Assembly (NCBI GenBank): GCA_002862305.1
Contig: PKCS01000053.1
Location: forward strand, 1 to 64,000
Source of the DNA: Phycisphaerae bacterium
GTDB lineage: Bacteria; Planctomycetota; Phycisphaerae; Phycisphaerales; SM1A02
Reading direction: 5' to 3'
Length of the DNA stretch: 64,000 nt
Shown: one piece after another, positions 33,431 through 64,000 of the stretch
How positions within the stretch are numbered: the first letter of the stretch is position 1
How the letters are laid out: each line of letters begins with the position of its first letter
Translations under genes and position numbers: made by a program
Notes under the pieces: model-generated
What the model saw: the letters and a program-made list of their open reading frames with translations, nothing else
Databases searched by the model: none
What the model was told of the DNA's origin: nothing

Positions 33431-35575
33431 ATGCCGACCTCCCTCACCGCCCGCCTCGCCCTGGGTCTCGCGATTCTTCCCCTGGTCGCCCACTCCGCCA
33501 CCGCCCAGTCGACCGGTGCGATCGTGGAGCCGGATGCCGCGACCCTGGCGGAGCTGAGCAGCGAACGTCCGTGGCAGACCAATGACGGAATCATCCACTT
33601 CCAGGGGCGACGATACGCCAGCTGGAAGGCCTACTTCGACGAGCGCGAATCCCGGGGACTGAACGACCACCGCTGCGCCTTCCGCCCCGCGGACGCCCCC
33701 GCCCCCGATCCGGGGACCATGCTGATGTCGCCCGCGGACTGCTCCTGCTCGAGCAACAACCCCAGCGAGGAGTACGATCCCTCGGTCGGGGTCCTCAGGG
33801 TCCCCTGCGTGGTGCACGTCATCCGCAACAGCTCCGGCACCCAGGGTGACATCCCGCTGGAGCGGGTGATCAGCGGCATCCGGATCCTCAACGAGGACTT
33901 CTCGGCACGTTCCGGGACCAACGGCGCGAACGGGAACAACGCCAACATCGAGTTCTACCTCGCCGAGGTCGACCCCGACGGGAATCCCACCAACGGGGTG
34001 ACCTTCAGCAACAACGACACCTGGTACAACGACGGCGGCTCCTACTGGAATTCGCTCAGCTGGGATCCGTCCCGGTACATGAACATCTACACCACGACCG
34101 CCGGAGGAAATCTCGGCTACGTCCCGTTCCTCCCCGCCTGCGGGTCCCCGGGCTCGGCCTCGGACCGCGTGGTGGTCCTCTGGGAATCCTACGGGGAGGG
34201 CGCCCCCATCGGGCCGCCATACAACCTCGGCCGCACCCTGACCCACGAGGTCGGGCACTACCTGGGGCTGAACCACACCTTCAACGGGTGCGAGGGCGGC
34301 AACTGCAACACCGGCGGGGACCTGATCTGCGACACCAGTCCCCAGAACTCCCCCACCTTCGGGTGCAACGGATCCTCCTGCAGCGGGGTCGCTCCGGACG
34401 ACAACTACATGGACTACTCCGACGACATCTGCATGGAGCAGTTCACGCCGTTCCAGAACCGACGGATGCGCTGCACGCTCGAGTACTACCGAACCGACCT
34501 CACGGACCCGGTCGTGCAGCTCATCCAGCTCGAGCAGGTGGGTGACGTCCCGGCCCTGGTCCCCCCCGCCGGCCTGACCGCGGAAGTCCGGATCACCGAG
34601 CTGCAGTCGGGCGGGCTGGTCCCGGGCAGCCCGCGAGTGGTCATCGACACCGGCACCGGGGAGCAGTCGATCCCCCTGGCCAGCCAGGGCGGGGGGCTCT
34701 ACGCCGCCCAGCTCTCGGACCTGCCCTGCGGCAACCAGCTGGACTGGTACTTCACCGCCGAGGATTCCGCGGGGCTCACCCGCCGACTTCCGGCGTCCGG
34801 GGCCTTCTCGGCCCCCATCGCGGACGGAATCGACCAGGTCGCCGACCTCGACTTCGACACCTCCGCCGGATGGACCGCGGAAACCACCGCCACCGCCGGT
34901 GGCTGGGAGCGTGGGGTCCCGACCGGGGACACCACCTCGGTCGACGTGTGCAGCGCACCCGGCACCGACGCGGACGGCAGCGGCAGCTGCTGGCTGACCG
35001 GCAACGGGTTCTCCCAGAGCGCCTGCGCCAACGACATCGACGGCGGCAACACCATCCTCACCTCCGCGGTCTACCAGGTCACCGAGCCGGCCACCGAGGT
35101 CCGCTTCTCGTGGTGGTACGACAACACCAGTGCGAACAACACCGAGTACGACGACGTCTTCATCGTCGAGGTGAGTGGGGACTCCGGCACGAGCTGGACC
35201 TCGCTCCTGACGGTGTCCAACGGGGACAGCGCCCAGAACGGCTGGACCACCAGCTCGTTCGTGATCCGTGACTACGTCTCGGTCAGCTCCGGTTTCCGGA
35301 TCCGCTTCATCGCGAGCGACCAGGACCCCGGGTCGGTGGTCGAGGCCGGCGTGGACGCGTTCTCGATCTCCTCCATCAACTGCGGCGATGAGCCGGTGTG
35401 CGAGGGGGACATCAACGGTGATAACGCGGTGAGCGGGCAGGACCTGGCCGTGGTGCTGTCGACCTGGGCCCAGACCGGACCGGGCATCCCCGGCGACCTC
35501 AACGGGGACCTGGTGGTCAACGGCTCCGACATCGCGCTGATCCTCGGCAACTGGGGCCCCTGCACCGGGAACTGA
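33431..35575 (+). CDS. Secreted M43 (pappalysin-like) metalloprotease with dockerin
   Basis: The product is 714 residues. A signal peptide (1-25) and a propeptide-like region are followed by an M43 catalytic domain (~115-360) with the zinc motif THEVGHYLGLNH (His272, Glu273, His276, His282) and a Met-turn in YMDYSDD. A beta region (~360-450) follows. Then comes a MAM-like beta-sandwich (~475-660, containing WWYDNTSANN) that is nearly identical to one in the subtilase at 59381-61744. A dockerin pair ends the protein. It is an extracellular protease. The start is set by the signal peptide. A hairpin terminator follows. Confidence 0.9.
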   Translation: MPTSLTARLALGLAILPLVAHSATAQSTGAIVEPDAATLAELSSERPWQTNDGIIHFQGRRYASWKAYFDERESRGLNDHRCAFRPADAPAPDPGTMLMSPADCSCSSNNPSEEYDPSVGVLRVPCVVHVIRNSSGTQGDIPLERVISGIRILNEDFSARSGTNGANGNNANIEFYLAEVDPDGNPTNGVTFSNNDTWYNDGGSYWNSLSWDPSRYMNIYTTTAGGNLGYVPFLPACGSPGSASDRVVVLWESYGEGAPIGPPYNLGRTLTHEVGHYLGLNHTFNGCEGGNCNTGGDLICDTSPQNSPTFGCNGSSCSGVAPDDNYMDYSDDICMEQFTPFQNRRMRCTLEYYRTDLTDPVVQLIQLEQVGDVPALVPPAGLTAEVRITELQSGGLVPGSPRVVIDTGTGEQSIPLASQGGGLYAAQLSDLPCGNQLDWYFTAEDSAGLTRRLPASGAFSAPIADGIDQVADLDFDTSAGWTAETTATAGGWERGVPTGDTTSVDVCSAPGTDADGSGSCWLTGNGFSQSACANDIDGGNTILTSAVYQVTEPATEVRFSWWYDNTSANNTEYDDVFIVEVSGDSGTSWTSLLTVSNGDSAQNGWTTSSFVIRDYVSVSSGFRIRFIASDQDPGSVVEAGVDAFSISSINCGDEPVCEGDINGDNAVSGQDLAVVLSTWAQTGPGIPGDLNGDLVVNGSDIALILGNWGPCTGN

Positions 35576-59380: not shown

Positions 59381-61744
59381 TCAGGGGTTCCAGTCGGCGA
59401 GCACCTGGGCGAGGTCCTGTCCGTTGACGACTCCGTCGCAGTTCGCGTCGCCCGAACAGCCGGGCCCGGTGCAGTTCCAGTTGCCGAGGATCAGGGCGAG
59501 GTCGACCCCACCGATGAACCCGTCGTTGTCCAGGTCGCCGCTGGTGGTGCACGCGGGCTCCTCGACGCAGCTGAAGCTGCCGAGCGAGAACCCGTCGATC
59601 GCGGCCTCGACCACGGAACCGGGATCGGCGTCCGAGGCGGTGAACCGGATCCGGAAGCCGCTGGACACCTGCACGAAGTCACCGATGGTGAAGGTCTCGC
59701 TCACCCAGCCGGTCTGGGCGCTGTTCCCGTTGGCGACCGCGGCGTACTGCACCCAGGAATCACCCGAGTCACCGCTGACCTCGATCACGAACAGGTCGTC
59801 GTACTGGTCGTTGTTCGCGCTGGTGTTGTCGTACCACCAGGCGAAGGTGACCGGATCCGCGTCCACCGCATCCGCGTAGATCGCGGAGGTGAGGGTGGTG
59901 GACCCGTTGTCGATGTCGTTCGCGCAGGCACTGTTCGAGACGCCGTTCCCGGTCACCCAGCACAGCCCGCTGCCGTCGAAGTCCTGCGACGGGGCACTGC
60001 AGTCGTCGACCGAGATGCTGTCCGCGGAGGGAACCGCGCGCACCCAGCCACCCACGTCCGCGGACGTGGTGGCCGTCCAGCCGGCGGAGGTGTTGAAGTC
60101 CAGCTCGACCTCCGGCGGAGTGCCGACCAGGACCCCGAAGGGCTGGAAGGCCCCGTTGGCGGGCAGGGTCTGCTGCCCGGCCTGGGCGCCGGTGTACCGA
60201 AGGTAGAACTGCGGGGTGTCGCTGCAGCTGGCACTGGGGAGGCTGCCCTCCCAGACGTTGCCGAAGGTGTTCTGGATGGGCGCGGGGCGCCACGGCTCGC
60301 TGGTGGTCTGCCGGGTGAACAGCTCGACCGAGGTGAGGGCGTCCTCGCGGGGATCGACGACGAACTGGACCGTGGTGGAGACGCCGGGCTCGACCGAGGA
60401 GGGAAGGTCGGTCACCAGCGAGCCGACCGGACCCTGGAAGAGGTCGTTGAGGGTCGCCGCGGCGTCGATGACGCCGCCGGTGACGATCAGGCCGTTGAGG
60501 GAGTTCACGGGCCGGGCGTTGTCGAGGATCTTCGCCACGACCTCCTCGGGAGAGGGGTTCCCCATCTCCCGATAGACCAGCGCGGCGAGTCCGGCCACGT
60601 GGGGGGAGGCCATCGAGGTGCCGCTCTGCGAGGTGTAGCCTCCGTTGGTGTAGGTGCTGTTGATGTTCACGCCGGGGGCGGCGACGTCCACCGAGGGGAT
60701 CCCGTACTGCGAGAAGCCCGCGAGGTTGTCGTTGCAGTCGACCGCGGCCACCGAGATGATGTTCGGGAGCGAGTAGCCGGCGGGGTAGGAGGCGCCGTTG
60801 GAGCCGTTGTTGCCCGCAGCGGCCACGAAGACATGCTGGTACTGCTGGCCGGCGGCCTGGATCACGTCGAAGGCGGACTGGGAGGCACCACCGCCCCCGT
60901 AGCTGTTGTTCGAGACCTTGGCGCCGTTCTGGCAGGCGTAGTTGATCGCGTTCAGGATCGCCTGGGAGTCGAGGAAGACGTCACCGACCCGCAGGGGCAT
61001 GAGCTTGCAGACCCAGGCGACCCCGACGACCCCGACGCCGTTGTCGCCCACCGCACCGATGGTGCCGCAGACGTGCGTCCCGTGGCCGATGGTGTCGGAG
61101 GGGAATCGATCGTTGTCGTAGAAATCCCAGCCCGAGATGTCGTCGATGAGGCCGTTGAAGTCGTCATCGAGGCCGTTGGAGGCTTCACCGGGCTTCACGT
61201 AGAGGTTGTCGACGAGGTCGGGGTGGCTGAGGTCCATGCCGCTGTCGATGACCGCGACCACGATGTCCTCGTTGCCGACCGTGACGTCCCAGGCGTCGGG
61301 CATGCCGATCGACTGCATGCCGCAGAGGTTCCCGATGCCTTCCGCGGGCAGGGTGGTGTAGGAATCGAGGAGGTAGACGGGTTCGGCGTACCGCAGGACG
61401 TCGGTCCGGTACTTCACCAGCTCGAGGGCCTCGGCCACGGGGACCGAGAGCTCGATGCAGTGGAGCCCCTCGACGAGATCGAAGGTCTGGAGGGATCGGC
61501 CGACCAGGCCGAAGATCTCCTGCTGCTGGGCGGGGGAGGCCGTCGGCGTGAATCGGATGAAGATCCGGTCCTTCGCGTGCGGGTGGTCGAGGGCGTTGGT
61601 CGTGGGGTGGGTGGTCGGGATCTGCGTCTCGACGTCGACGTCAGCGACGGGGCGGGTGCCCAGGTCCTGGGCGGCTAGCGCTCCGAAGGAGGCGAAGGTG
61701 AGCCCGAGCAGTCCGGTCGTGGCAGCAGTCAGGTGGTAGGGCAT
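59381..61744 (-). CDS. Secreted subtilase (S8) with MAM-like module and dockerin
   Basis: The product is 787 residues. A signal peptide (1-25) and an I9-like propeptide (~55-130) precede the catalytic domain (~145-430) with the triad Asp167 (AVIDSGMD), His221 (GHGTHV) and Ser377 (SGTSMASPH), and oxyanion Asn (AAAGNNG). A beta linker, a MAM-like module (~550-735; WWYDNTSANN) nearly identical to that of the M43 protease, and a dockerin pair follow. It is an extracellular serine protease. AGGAAT precedes the ATG. A candidate promoter with a 19-base spacer lies at 61854-61884. Confidence 0.93.
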   Translation of the reverse strand: MPYHLTAATTGLLGLTFASFGALAAQDLGTRPVADVDVETQIPTTHPTTNALDHPHAKDRIFIRFTPTASPAQQQEIFGLVGRSLQTFDLVEGLHCIELSVPVAEALELVKYRTDVLRYAEPVYLLDSYTTLPAEGIGNLCGMQSIGMPDAWDVTVGNEDIVVAVIDSGMDLSHPDLVDNLYVKPGEASNGLDDDFNGLIDDISGWDFYDNDRFPSDTIGHGTHVCGTIGAVGDNGVGVVGVAWVCKLMPLRVGDVFLDSQAILNAINYACQNGAKVSNNSYGGGGASQSAFDVIQAAGQQYQHVFVAAAGNNGSNGASYPAGYSLPNIISVAAVDCNDNLAGFSQYGIPSVDVAAPGVNINSTYTNGGYTSQSGTSMASPHVAGLAALVYREMGNPSPEEVVAKILDNARPVNSLNGLIVTGGVIDAAATLNDLFQGPVGSLVTDLPSSVEPGVSTTVQFVVDPREDALTSVELFTRQTTSEPWRPAPIQNTFGNVWEGSLPSASCSDTPQFYLRYTGAQAGQQTLPANGAFQPFGVLVGTPPEVELDFNTSAGWTATTSADVGGWVRAVPSADSISVDDCSAPSQDFDGSGLCWVTGNGVSNSACANDIDNGSTTLTSAIYADAVDADPVTFAWWYDNTSANNDQYDDLFVIEVSGDSGDSWVQYAAVANGNSAQTGWVSETFTIGDFVQVSSGFRIRFTASDADPGSVVEAAIDGFSLGSFSCVEEPACTTSGDLDNDGFIGGVDLALILGNWNCTGPGCSGDANCDGVVNGQDLAQVLADWNP

Positions 61745-61902: not shown

Positions 61903-62829
61903 TCATTTGGCCCGGAGACGTTGGACACCGGCGGATTCCAGGATCGCGTGCATGCTCTGGAAGGAGGGATGGATGGTGAAGTATTCGCAGACCGAACCGT
62001 CCAGTTCCATGGTCTTGCAGGATCGGCCGCCGAGCATGAAGTGGACCTTGCCGCGGATGCAGTCCTCGATGAGATCGATGATCGCCTGACGCTCCTCCTG
62101 GGAGTTGACGGGCTCGCTGATCGAAAGCCACACGAAGTCGACGTTGCCTTCCCGGCCGTCGGTGGGCAGTGCCTCGCAACGAAGGGCTCGCGCGGGGGTG
62201 TTGGCGCCCAGGTTGATGGCACGGCCGCCGCACTCCTCCACGACGCCGGCGGCCAACAGGGTCGGCAGCAGGTAGGCATTCCCGGCGGAACCGCCACCGA
62301 CCGCCTTGAATTCAGGTTCGTCGAAGGACGACATCACCCGCATCTGTTCGATCGACTGCAGGCAGACCTGCGTGGCCCGGTGCTCCTTGACGATTTCCGC
62401 GGGGCCGTGGGGACCGTGGCCCAGTTCCTCCATGGCGGGACGGATGATCAGGTCACCGAGTTCGGCGATCGACTCCCCGGACAGGAACCGGTGCAGGAGC
62501 AGGGCTTCCGCACGATCGCCCTCACCGGCCTCCAGGTAGTCCACGAAGGACTTGTAGAGTGAATCCTCCGTCGGACTCGTGGCGCGTTCGGCGAACGCGG
62601 CGGTCACGGGGCCGGACAGGCCCAGCTTCTCCGGAGCGCTCACCACCAGCTGGCGATCGCGGATGAAGCGAACCGCCTCCTTGACGCGGATCCGTCGGTG
62701 CCCGCCCGCCGTCCTGGTGGACTCGAGGAGGCCTCGATCCACCCAGCGCTTGAGGGAGGACTCGCTCATTCCGATGGCCACGGCGAGATCCCGTGGCGAC
62801 AAGGTTTTGGACCCATCTGTGACCGGCAT
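61903..62829 (-). CDS. MerR-family regulator with CarH/LitR-like B12-binding-type domain
   Basis: The product is 308 residues. An N-terminal MerR/excisionase-like winged helix (residues ~10-60; the TAGGHRRI wing is at 40-47) is followed by a helical cap (~85-165) and a Rossmann-like cobalamin-binding-type domain (~172-305), the order of CarH/LitR photoreceptors. The cap keeps Glu149-His150 of the W-x9-EH motif but has Gly at the Trp position. The expected axial histidine of the B12 domain appears to be Tyr186 (SAGNAYLL). It may thus bind another ligand or none. TAGGAT lies 6 bases before the ATG with no ribosome binding site. It is divergent from the photolyase gene. Confidence 0.85.
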   Translation of the reverse strand: MPVTDGSKTLSPRDLAVAIGMSESSLKRWVDRGLLESTRTAGGHRRIRVKEAVRFIRDRQLVVSAPEKLGLSGPVTAAFAERATSPTEDSLYKSFVDYLEAGEGDRAEALLLHRFLSGESIAELGDLIIRPAMEELGHGPHGPAEIVKEHRATQVCLQSIEQMRVMSSFDEPEFKAVGGGSAGNAYLLPTLLAAGVVEECGGRAINLGANTPARALRCEALPTDGREGNVDFVWLSISEPVNSQEERQAIIDLIEDCIRGKVHFMLGGRSCKTMELDGSVCEYFTIHPSFQSMHAILESAGVQRLRAK

Positions 62830-62861: not shown

Positions 62862-62967
62862 GAACGTTTTGCACGAATTGACTGATTTTTTCTTCTGATA
62901 AGCTTGACAGGGTGGCCGTGAACACTAATCTGGTGACCGATATGAACGTTTTAGAACGATTTCGTTC
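62862..62967. promoter_or_regulatory. Operator-like repeats between the regulator and photolyase genes
   Basis: GAACGTTTT occurs at 62862-62870, and GAACGTTTTA at 62944-62953 is followed 10 bases later by GAACGATTTC (62954-62963). GAACGA and TCGTTC (62954-62967) form a perfect inverted repeat with a 2-base gap, nested in TGAACG/CGTTCA (62943-62968). The left copy lies just upstream of the regulator's own promoter. The right cluster lies just after the photolyase -10 element. Confidence 0.5.
62904..62931 (+). promoter_or_regulatory. Sigma-70-type promoter for the photolyase side
   Basis: TTGACA (62904-62909) and TAATCT (62926-62931) are separated by 16 bases, the closest match to consensus in this window. 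Transcription should start near 62938, inside the operator cluster. Confidence 0.6.
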
Positions 62968-63034
62968 ATTCACCGACACGGGGCCCGTTGGATCGTACCG
63001 CAGTCAATCCCCATTGATCCTTCGGGTAGCAGAA

Positions 63035-63067
63035 CAGGGGAGCGCTCACGCGCTCCCCTGTTTCTTC
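63035..63067 (+). terminator. Intrinsic terminator in the photolyase leader
   Basis: CAGGGGAGCGC (63035-63045) and GCGCTCCCCTG (63050-63060) form a perfect 11-bp stem with a TCAC loop, followed by TTTCTTC. It lies downstream of the promoter at 62904-62931 and 33 bases before the photolyase ATG. It may act as an attenuator or end a short RNA of about 130 bases. A frame of 53 codons (62942-63103) crosses it and overlaps the photolyase start, but its codon use is unlike genes here. Confidence 0.75.
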
Positions 63068-63099
63068 ATTGGGGAGGTGGACCAGCCAGGGGGCCTCGA

Positions 63100-64000
63100 A
63101 TGACCGACATGATCTGGTTTCGTGGGGACCTGAGGATCCAGGACCACCCAGCCCTCGAAGCCGCCTGCCACGGCGACACCCCCCCCCACGCGGTCTTCGC
63201 CCTGACCCCGGAGACCTGGCTCGAACACGGCTGGGGGCCGCCCAAGGTGGCCTACCTTCTCAAGAGCCTCCGCGCACTCGCCAACGAACTCGCGGAGCTG
63301 GGGATCACCCTGCACCTGGTCGAGGCGGGCAGCTTTGAACGCTCGGCCAGTCTCGTCGTGGAGCTCGCCGGACGACTGGGGATCGAAACCGTCCACGCGG
63401 GACTCGAATACGGGGTGGACGAACGAGACCGGGACGCGCTGGTCGCGGACGGCCTGACGCAGGCCGGCCGCCGACTCCAGCTCCACCACACCCAGACGAT
63501 CCTCCCCGTCGAGGAAATCGCCAGCGGCTCCGGGACCCCCTACCGGGTCTTCACCCCCTTTCGAAAGGCGTGGGAAGCGACGTGGTTCGCCGAGGGCCGT
63601 TCCCCCACCGGACGCCTCGAGCCGGTCGGCCCCGCCACCACGCCCACGAGGATCCCCGACCGCGTCGAGGGATTCGACGACTGGCCCGGGCTCGGGCAAT
63701 GGGAGGCCGGGACCGAATCCGGAATGCAGCGACTCGGGGACTTCATCGTTCGAGCGCTCGACGCCTACGACTCCGCCCGCGACCTGCCCGATCGGGACGG
63801 AACCAGCAGCCTTTCGCCCTGGCTCGCCATCGGCTCCATCTCACCCGGCATGTGCCTCGAGGCGCTCATCCAGCGCCTCGGTCCCGAACTCGCCCGATGG
63901 CCGAAGGGTGCGCGATCCTGGCAGGGCGAACTCGTCTGGCGGGAGTTCTACCGTCACGTACTCGGCTGCTTCCCCGAGCTCTCGAAGAATCGGCCGATGC
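63100..64000 (+). CDS. phr: Deoxyribodipyrimidine photolyase (N-terminal part, cut by the window end)
   Basis: The first 300 residues are visible. MIWFRGDLRIQDHPAL is the standard start of the class I photolyase/cryptochrome antenna domain. The C-terminal FAD domain begins within the window (SLSPWLAIGSISPGMCLEAL, WQGELVWREFYRHVLG). It repairs UV-induced cyclobutane dimers with blue light. The ATG at 63100 has AGGGGG 6 bases upstream. A second ATG at 63109 is possible. Placement beside a CarH-like regulator fits light-controlled photolyase genes of other bacteria. Confidence 0.93.
   Translation, partial: MTDMIWFRGDLRIQDHPALEAACHGDTPPHAVFALTPETWLEHGWGPPKVAYLLKSLRALANELAELGITLHLVEAGSFERSASLVVELAGRLGIETVHAGLEYGVDERDRDALVADGLTQAGRRLQLHHTQTILPVEEIASGSGTPYRVFTPFRKAWEATWFAEGRSPTGRLEPVGPATTPTRIPDRVEGFDDWPGLGQWEAGTESGMQRLGDFIVRALDAYDSARDLPDRDGTSSLSPWLAIGSISPGMCLEALIQRLGPELARWPKGARSWQGELVWREFYRHVLGCFPELSKNRPM

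Follow-up and report, generated by a model that had tools for sequence, protein, structure and literature searches.

Several described bacterial systems resemble parts of the locus analysed here. UpsM of Rhodobacter sphaeroides is a small RNA generated by intrinsic termination within a 5' leader, and roughly one transcript in 100 reads through (PMC5089854, here and below as far as the accessible part of that paper describes it). The likeness extends to a promoter, a leader-terminated small RNA, a downstream gene reached by read-through, a short frame over the terminator and a setting of photo-oxidative stress, and a route of this kind appears workable because UpsM exhibits both the rare read-through and the short frame (PMC5089854). 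The systems differ in phylum and in downstream genes, UpsM preceding the dcw cluster; UpsM also comes with Hfq and RNase E data, whereas a CarH-type regulator goes unmentioned in the accessible text (PMC5089854), and the two are likened by architecture, not by sequence. The CcsR1–4 RNAs, also of R. sphaeroides, are several small RNAs from one transcript associated with oxidative stress, and in this recall the tandem hairpins of one genome described below; according to the available part of the source, however, they derive from a 3' UTR and are matured by RNase E, whereas the hairpins considered here lie in 5' leaders and several are terminator-like (PMC8625941).

On the side of the regulator, the class II LitR proteins PplR and PmlR of Pseudomonas are LitR/CarH-family repressors found with photolyase, folE and other light-induced genes (PMC9758184, accessible in part). 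Their operators have the form T(G/A)TACA-N12-TGTA(C/T)A, in contrast to the 9-bp direct repeats reported here, and the accessible text on the Pseudomonas light regulons does not mention a small RNA (PMC9758184). BldC of Streptomyces has a MerR-like helix-turn-helix (HTH), and each protomer binds one 9-bp direct repeat, a length equal to the repeat spacing upstream of regulators of the type described below; as far as the available text goes, BldC is a protein of 68 residues with no effector domain, whereas here the MerR-like HTH is joined to a CarH-like fold (PMC5859096). A literature search, which left subscription papers mostly outside its scope, found no work linking photolyase to a small RNA with LitR or CarH, or to leader transcription attenuation; nothing relevant to light-linked small RNAs in Planctomycetes appeared among the matches listed, and nothing relevant was found on noncoding RNA in Phycisphaera.

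The photolyase leader and its terminator

The DNA analysed is a 64-kb window, and the assembly containing it comprises 2.67 Mb. The plus strand carries a photolyase gene, phr (63100–64000, continuing past the window end; Pfam PF00875, E = 1.9e-40), whose open frame on the contig is 514 amino acids long. As stated in the initial annotation, no rightward gene is evident upstream; the neighbour is a divergent gene (62829–61903). Between them a sigma-70-like promoter, TTGACA-16-TAATCT, can be read from the plus strand at 62904–62931. It had been described as near-consensus: both boxes are indeed present with a spacer of 16, and the −35 box (TTGACA, 62904–62909) is perfect, but the strength implied by that term is not borne out, as the −10 box (TAATCT, 62926–62931) matches the consensus at three of six positions and a consensus pattern scan did not list the promoter.

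Placing the 5' end from the −10 box and the 3' end from the terminator gives a predicted small RNA, or leader, of about 130 nt on the plus strand (62938–63069). Its fold has a z score of −4.3, and none of 200 shuffles was as low. No Rfam family reached its gathering score at the locus, where the remaining matches were at chance level; in the window only two tRNAs elsewhere did so, and 12 related loci yielded none. The locus has the defining arrangement of a leader-derived small RNA, a promoter and a terminator within one gene's 5' leader, as judged from sequence and conservation and with a poor −10 box.

The terminator (63033–63070, plus strand) combines a GC-rich hairpin with an interrupted T-rich tract, as expected of intrinsic terminators. 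Its stem, at 63033–63062, is a perfect 13-bp helix (arms AACAGGGGAGCGC and GCGCTCCCCTGTT, 4-nt loop) followed by TCTTCATT; this is the perfect hairpin with a T-rich tail recognised previously in front of the photolyase gene, although the gap then given as 33 bases is in fact 37 bases from the stem end to the ATG at 63100. Among perfect stems with loops of 3–8 nt it is the longest in the window (13 pairs; the next longest have 11), and 20 first-order Markov shuffles of the window contained a mean of 0.15 places with at least 13 pairs. A strict pattern scan did not list the terminator at 63033; by our reading, this is because the interrupted T tract fails the rule once a G-U pair extends the stem. 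The tail score (nT) of 3.89 exceeds those of the other three hairpins scored in the window. These are 35598, which follows a 728-aa frame with its end at 35575 and scores 3.48; 59322 on the minus strand, which follows a gene with its end at 59381 and scores 3.02; and 18153, which scores 2.29 on one strand and 1.86 on the other. An imperfect tail is therefore ordinary here.

All five genomes of the genus have a photolyase-family match, and three have the regulator. The divergent regulator/photolyase pair is found in the window genome, G002 and G003; in G001 the photolyase gene is present and its leader is cut by a contig end, and G004 (75% complete) has a distant photolyase-family match only and lacks the regulator. 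The terminator hairpin, whose conservation in relatives had been named earlier as a point to look at, is kept in four of the five genomes, namely all four with the locus (nT 3.29 in G001, 4.58 in G002 and 4.84 in G003). G002 and G003 have promoter-like boxes at the matching place, as read by eye, and a T6 tract at the terminator. Their T tracts end 14 nt (G002) and 15 nt (G003) before the photolyase ATG, a gap that fits no further promoter; in these two genomes photolyase expression therefore requires read-through, or else a promoter within the RNA.

Immediately 5' of the terminator is a further hairpin, overlooked in the initial annotation. This hairpin 1 (62983–63027, plus strand) has 11 pairs, joining 62983–62987 to 63023–63027 and 62990–62995 to 63015–63020, and encloses the loop motif GCAGTCA(A/C)TCCCCA (63000–63013), which has a single variable position across the window genome, G001, G002 and G003. 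Each sequence was folded alone with the 14 motif bases forced unpaired. In that order of genomes the stems have 11, 9, 10 and 10 pairs, and flank shuffles reached the real energy (−16.7 kcal/mol in the window genome) 3, 2, 0 and 3 times in 2,000. The stem sequences differ between the window genome, G001 and the G002/G003 pair, with pairing kept throughout; G002 and G003 differ at just 4 of the 86 bases of the region, and the independent stems therefore number three. In the terminated RNA, most of the motif stays unpaired in each of the four genomes (per-base paired probability at most 0.50, mostly below 0.3). RNAalifold, applied to the four-sequence alignment, recovered the terminator alone, because the MAFFT alignment offsets the arms of hairpin 1 by one base, and it yielded no formal covariation count for hairpin 1.

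A search for complements of the loop listed 13 sites with one mismatch; of the 10 opened, nearly all appear to be coding and none is a convincing target. One site, L179, precedes a possible ATG by about 90 nt; the sole site shared between genomes (L178/L187) is within a gene. The true pattern outnumbers its reversed control (47 versus 16 in the window genome), but the control differs in dinucleotide content and the excess is hence not evidence.

The divergent regulator and its predicted regulon

The divergent gene (61903–62829, minus strand) encodes P0001, a BldC/MerR-like regulator with a predicted CarH fold. It matches the NCBIfam profiles TransRegCarH (E = 1.3e-7) and HTH_BldC (E = 7.9e-7), both below the curated cut-offs, and PDB entry 8jbs (phmmer, E = 4.3e-14). 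Its AlphaFold model (pLDDT 88) has Thermus CarH (5c8f) as best Foldseek match (E = 8.6e-11), and the model points to the MerR-type HTH plus B12-binding fold of CarH and class I LitR. The axial-ligand histidine of CarH is absent: Tyr186 aligns to a histidine of 8jbs which we take to be the cobalamin ligand, with neighbouring residues as the cap. All 22 aligned proteins, the product of 61903–62829 and 21 homologs, have tyrosine at this position, and all 22 keep the neighbouring E149-H150. Because tyrosine replaces the ligand, P0001 may not bind B12 in the known way, and its group may detect a signal other than B12, or differ in how it binds B12. Relatives of P0001 in named records come mostly from Phycisphaerales, Phycisphaerae and other planctomycete metagenome-assembled genomes, with some from other phyla.

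Candidate operators flank the promoter on the plus strand. The upstream one (62862–62888), a two-mismatch site, comprises three 9-bp units, GAACGTTTT GCACGAATT GACTGATTT, the second and third of which are degenerate; the downstream one (62935–62962), near the transcription start, reads GACCGATAT GAACGTTTT A GAACGATTT, its two strict units being 10 bp apart. Two strict GAACGTTTT-like units exactly 9 bp apart occur in 21 of 81 upstream regions (those of 80 named loci and of the window locus) versus none of 78 control regions, and 9 is the spacing in 22 of the 35 counted unit spacings up to 30 bp. The window locus is outside the 21, since its strict units are either solitary or 10 bp from one another and their 9-bp neighbours are degenerate. 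As far as these patterns go, the regulator group appears to have direct repeats of the BldC type, the window locus through degenerate units only. In L010 and L052, many short GGTCGGTGCCTGTCCCCAATTCAGGG-type repeats lie upstream of the regulator, between it and the promoter.

Operator-like pairs with up to two mismatches number 6, 3, 5, 4 and 3 in the window genome and G001–G004, respectively, compared with 0, 1, 0, 1 and 0 for the reversed pattern. Two fall at the photolyase locus of the window, and eleven other sites in the genus were opened. Four of these precede a bacteriorhodopsin-type gene (L222 in the window genome, L208 in G002, L205 in G003 and L206 in G004), identified with Pfam PF01036 in L222 and L208, by a PDB sequence search also in L222, and by reading in L205 and L206. 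Three precede fasciclin-like secreted proteins, as identified by reading (L202, L204 and L210). Site L213 is cut by a contig end, and L217, L220 and L221, opened and read, have no evident target gene. With operator-like repeats upstream, the bacteriorhodopsin-type genes of L222 (1501–2438; contig G000:C40 of the window genome), L208, L205 and L206 are predicted cases of a regulator-controlled rhodopsin in Planctomycetes. Fasciclin-like secreted proteins, assigned mostly by reading, also recur at loci L005–L019 (family f1), where they often directly follow the divergent promoter of the regulator.

Terminator-bearing RNAs in other genera

Matches to the regulator at E = 0.001 were found in 52 of 121 family genomes, and 29 were strong (E = 1.6e-31 or better). 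All strong loci except L027 were read by eye, over about 420 nt each and more for L010. A terminator-bearing RNA follows the promoter or operator in 10 of these 28: three in genus g1, three in g33, two in g38 and two in g7. The RNAs of the other genera have different sequences, with C-rich loops and the same position divergent from the regulator; since they do not align with the genus module, common descent is not established. At most of the other loci read, protein genes occupy this place instead, e.g., fasciclin (with Pfam tested on L044 only) and folE (L022).

The g33 RNA consists of GCCACCCCATGGC, a long hairpin and a T tract, and in five genomes the next rightward frame, marC-like by sequence, starts 259–357 nt away. 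In g38, a Pfam MarC gene lies 230 nt beyond the RNA of G069 (L059), the hairpin of which has a poor tail, and a photolyase-related gene (PF04244) lies 88 nt beyond that of G090. A photolyase-type gene is also next in G010, G052 and G090. In the g7 genome G010 (L023, 2581–2908), four tandem hairpins with the loop AACTCGTAGCGTGCCCC, the fourth changed and shorter, stand between the regulator and the photolyase gene. Of their 14 stem pairs, seven have changes in both partners, matched by none of 500 shuffles, in a comparison of four copies from one genome; for the g33/g38 terminator, this holds for 3 of 16 pairs.

An automatic terminator scan of the 80 named loci reported seven, all in g1 or g33; L059, L052 and L120, unreported by it, were judged by eye. 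Mapped onto a tree of 34 regulators, the RNA, present beside 12 of them, requires three changes, fewer than in any of 500 label shuffles, with the proviso that several protein labels were assigned by reading and that near copies inflate the clustering. Three changes imply either one gain and two losses, or three gains.

Covariance models were built for the genus RNA (R2), the G010 hairpins (R1) and the third RNA type (R3), and each was run on 181 family genomes under strict filters that left just 15–34 scored candidates per genome. Model R2 matched 40 of the 181 at E = 0.05, strongly at its four training loci only. A wider family of the genus RNA was considered and set aside, the weak matches opened (L126, L128 and L129) being ordinary gene-end terminators. 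Across 301 genomes from the order, matches at E = 0.001 numbered 10 genomes for R2 and 6 for R3, the further ones being weak; the five new loci opened (L223–L227) are terminator-like, and their fetched flanks contain neither a regulator nor a photolyase homolog. Outside its training set, R1 matched a stretch of G014 that is apparently coding and, at E = 0.005, the G052 locus. R3 matched 16 of the 181 genomes at E = 0.05, and seven matches adjoin the regulator, namely six training loci and, independently, G090 (E = 2.7e-4); the weak matches L156 and L157 have no regulator setting by eye, and a weak full-length match, G168:C33, lies away from the regulator. In the 181 family genomes, none of the three models found a second match as strong as the described loci, the strong matches being training loci. 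Independent model support is limited to G090 (R3) and G052 (R1), and by these searches the genus RNA module is restricted to one genus.

Competing explanations for the leader RNA

We give somewhat better than even credence to the reading of 62938–63069 as a small RNA of about 130 nt that terminates within the 5' leader, with photolyase expressed by read-through. The initial annotation had offered photolyase read-through and a stand-alone RNA of about 130 bases as two readings; the two are compatible and both may be partly true, with conservation favouring the terminated RNA. It is favoured because the terminator hairpin occurs in four of the five genus genomes, each time alongside hairpin 1 and its invariant loop, and because the RNAs of other genera keep their position divergent from the regulator even where no photolyase gene lies downstream. 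The same reading draws support from hairpin 1 and its loop adjoining the terminator in all four locus-bearing genomes, from the openness of that loop, from the gap behind the terminator of G002 and G003, too short to hold a photolyase promoter, from the C-rich-loop RNAs at 10 of the 28 strong loci, including the G010 array, from the marC-like frames that follow the RNAs of g33 and of G069 in g38, from the operator-like sites before rhodopsin and fasciclin-like genes, and from the precedent of UpsM as partly accessible (PMC5089854). It is weakened by the outcomes of the loop-complement search and of RNAalifold, by the restriction of the module to one genus with unalignable RNAs in the others, and by the upstream partners that the 5' arm of the terminator has in the nascent RNA, as an attenuator would.

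Those partners raise the rather unlikely alternative of a leader acting purely in cis, as an attenuator or in the manner of a riboswitch, in which hairpin 1 would sense a ligand or protein and set termination against read-through, the short RNA being a by-product. In each of the four genus genomes the terminator is close to the start codon of photolyase, and G010, G052 and G090 likewise have a photolyase-type gene downstream. When the nascent RNA is cut at the 5' arm of the terminator, this arm is paired upstream with probabilities of 0.38 in the window genome, 0.67 in G001, 0.66 in G002 and 0.67 in G003, and the partner in G002 is a perfect one of 9 bp (CCCCTGATC with GATCAGGGG). The partners differ, however, with the competing fold opening hairpin 1 in G001, a short helix in G003 and weak pairing in the window genome; no conserved antiterminator was found across the four genomes, and a long perfect partner exists in G002 only. 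In the read-through transcript of the window genome, the loop motif also pairs with GGGGAGG 3' of the terminator, which could damp translation; this partner is missing in G001–G003. A simple attenuator is likewise ill-suited to the four serial terminator-like hairpins of G010 and to RNAs that lie 230–357 nt from a marC-like frame. An ordinary terminator with no regulatory role, photolyase being transcribed from an unrecognised promoter, is improbable: the opened weak matches to the genus RNA are of this plain kind, but here there is no upstream rightward gene to terminate, an invariant loop and structure-preserving stem differences lie 5' of the terminator, and the T tracts of G002 and G003 come within 14–15 nt of the ATG.

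Hardly any more credible, and if anything slightly less so, is attenuation controlled by ribosomes on the short open frame that crosses the terminator (62942–63103, plus strand), coupled to photolyase by an ATGA overlap, as proposed in the initial annotation. The frame and its overlap with the photolyase start exist as described, the frame of the loop motif likewise ends in a TGA overlapping the photolyase ATG in G001 and G002, and UpsM has a weakly translated short frame over its terminator, according to the accessible text (PMC5089854). The overlap occurs in three of the four genomes, a degree of agreement (at least three of four in one frame) expected by chance in 27 of 81 cases, i.e., a third. 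Substitutions at codon positions 1, 2 and 3 number 6, 8 and 5 between the window genome and G001, and 1, 2 and 1 between G002 and G003, with no third-position excess in either comparison and no clear sign of a conserved peptide. The G003 frame continues in frame into photolyase, the G002 frame lacks a counterpart of the first half of the window frame, and differences in spacing and in terminator loop length (4, 5, 6 and 6 nt in the window genome, G001, G002 and G003) are not multiples of three. A leader peptide is unlikely given the codon-position counts and the G003 fusion, although the ATGA overlap in three genomes speaks against dismissing it.

The terminated small RNA can be set in a working scheme. 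Locus architecture, a conserved loop on a stem maintained despite sequence changes, the terminator, the spacing of the repeats near regulators of this type and the recurrence in other genera are computed features; repression, light control, partial read-through and action in trans are predicted. The regulator would most likely repress the promoter by filling the 9-bp direct repeats that flank this promoter, and its release, probably in light or photo-oxidative stress, would allow transcription. Most transcripts would stop at the terminator, giving an RNA of about 130 nt that displays the accessible C-rich loop GCAGUCAAUCCCCA, and a fraction would read through to form photolyase mRNA. The functional element is probably the loop, which may pair with G-rich ribosome-binding regions in other mRNAs or bind a protein. 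The loops of the CcsR RNAs reportedly carry a shared anti-Shine-Dalgarno-like motif.

More tentatively, and as a possibility that we consider less probable than its alternatives taken together, planctomycetes of this family may carry a class of light-controlled small RNAs, born by termination between a CarH/BldC-like photoregulator lacking the ligand histidine and a DNA-repair target. Its C-rich loop would have been kept or re-invented in several sequence-unrelated forms, once amplified into a tandem array of four hairpins, and it would re-programme the translation of other mRNAs in light stress. If the terminated small RNA is real, it would join rhodopsin, photolyase and an RNA in one predicted regulon and provide a structure-supported, light-tied small RNA in Planctomycetes. 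It would also add an RNA arm to bacterial photoreception through regulators of the CarH/LitR type, which the accessible literature describes only as regulators of protein genes.
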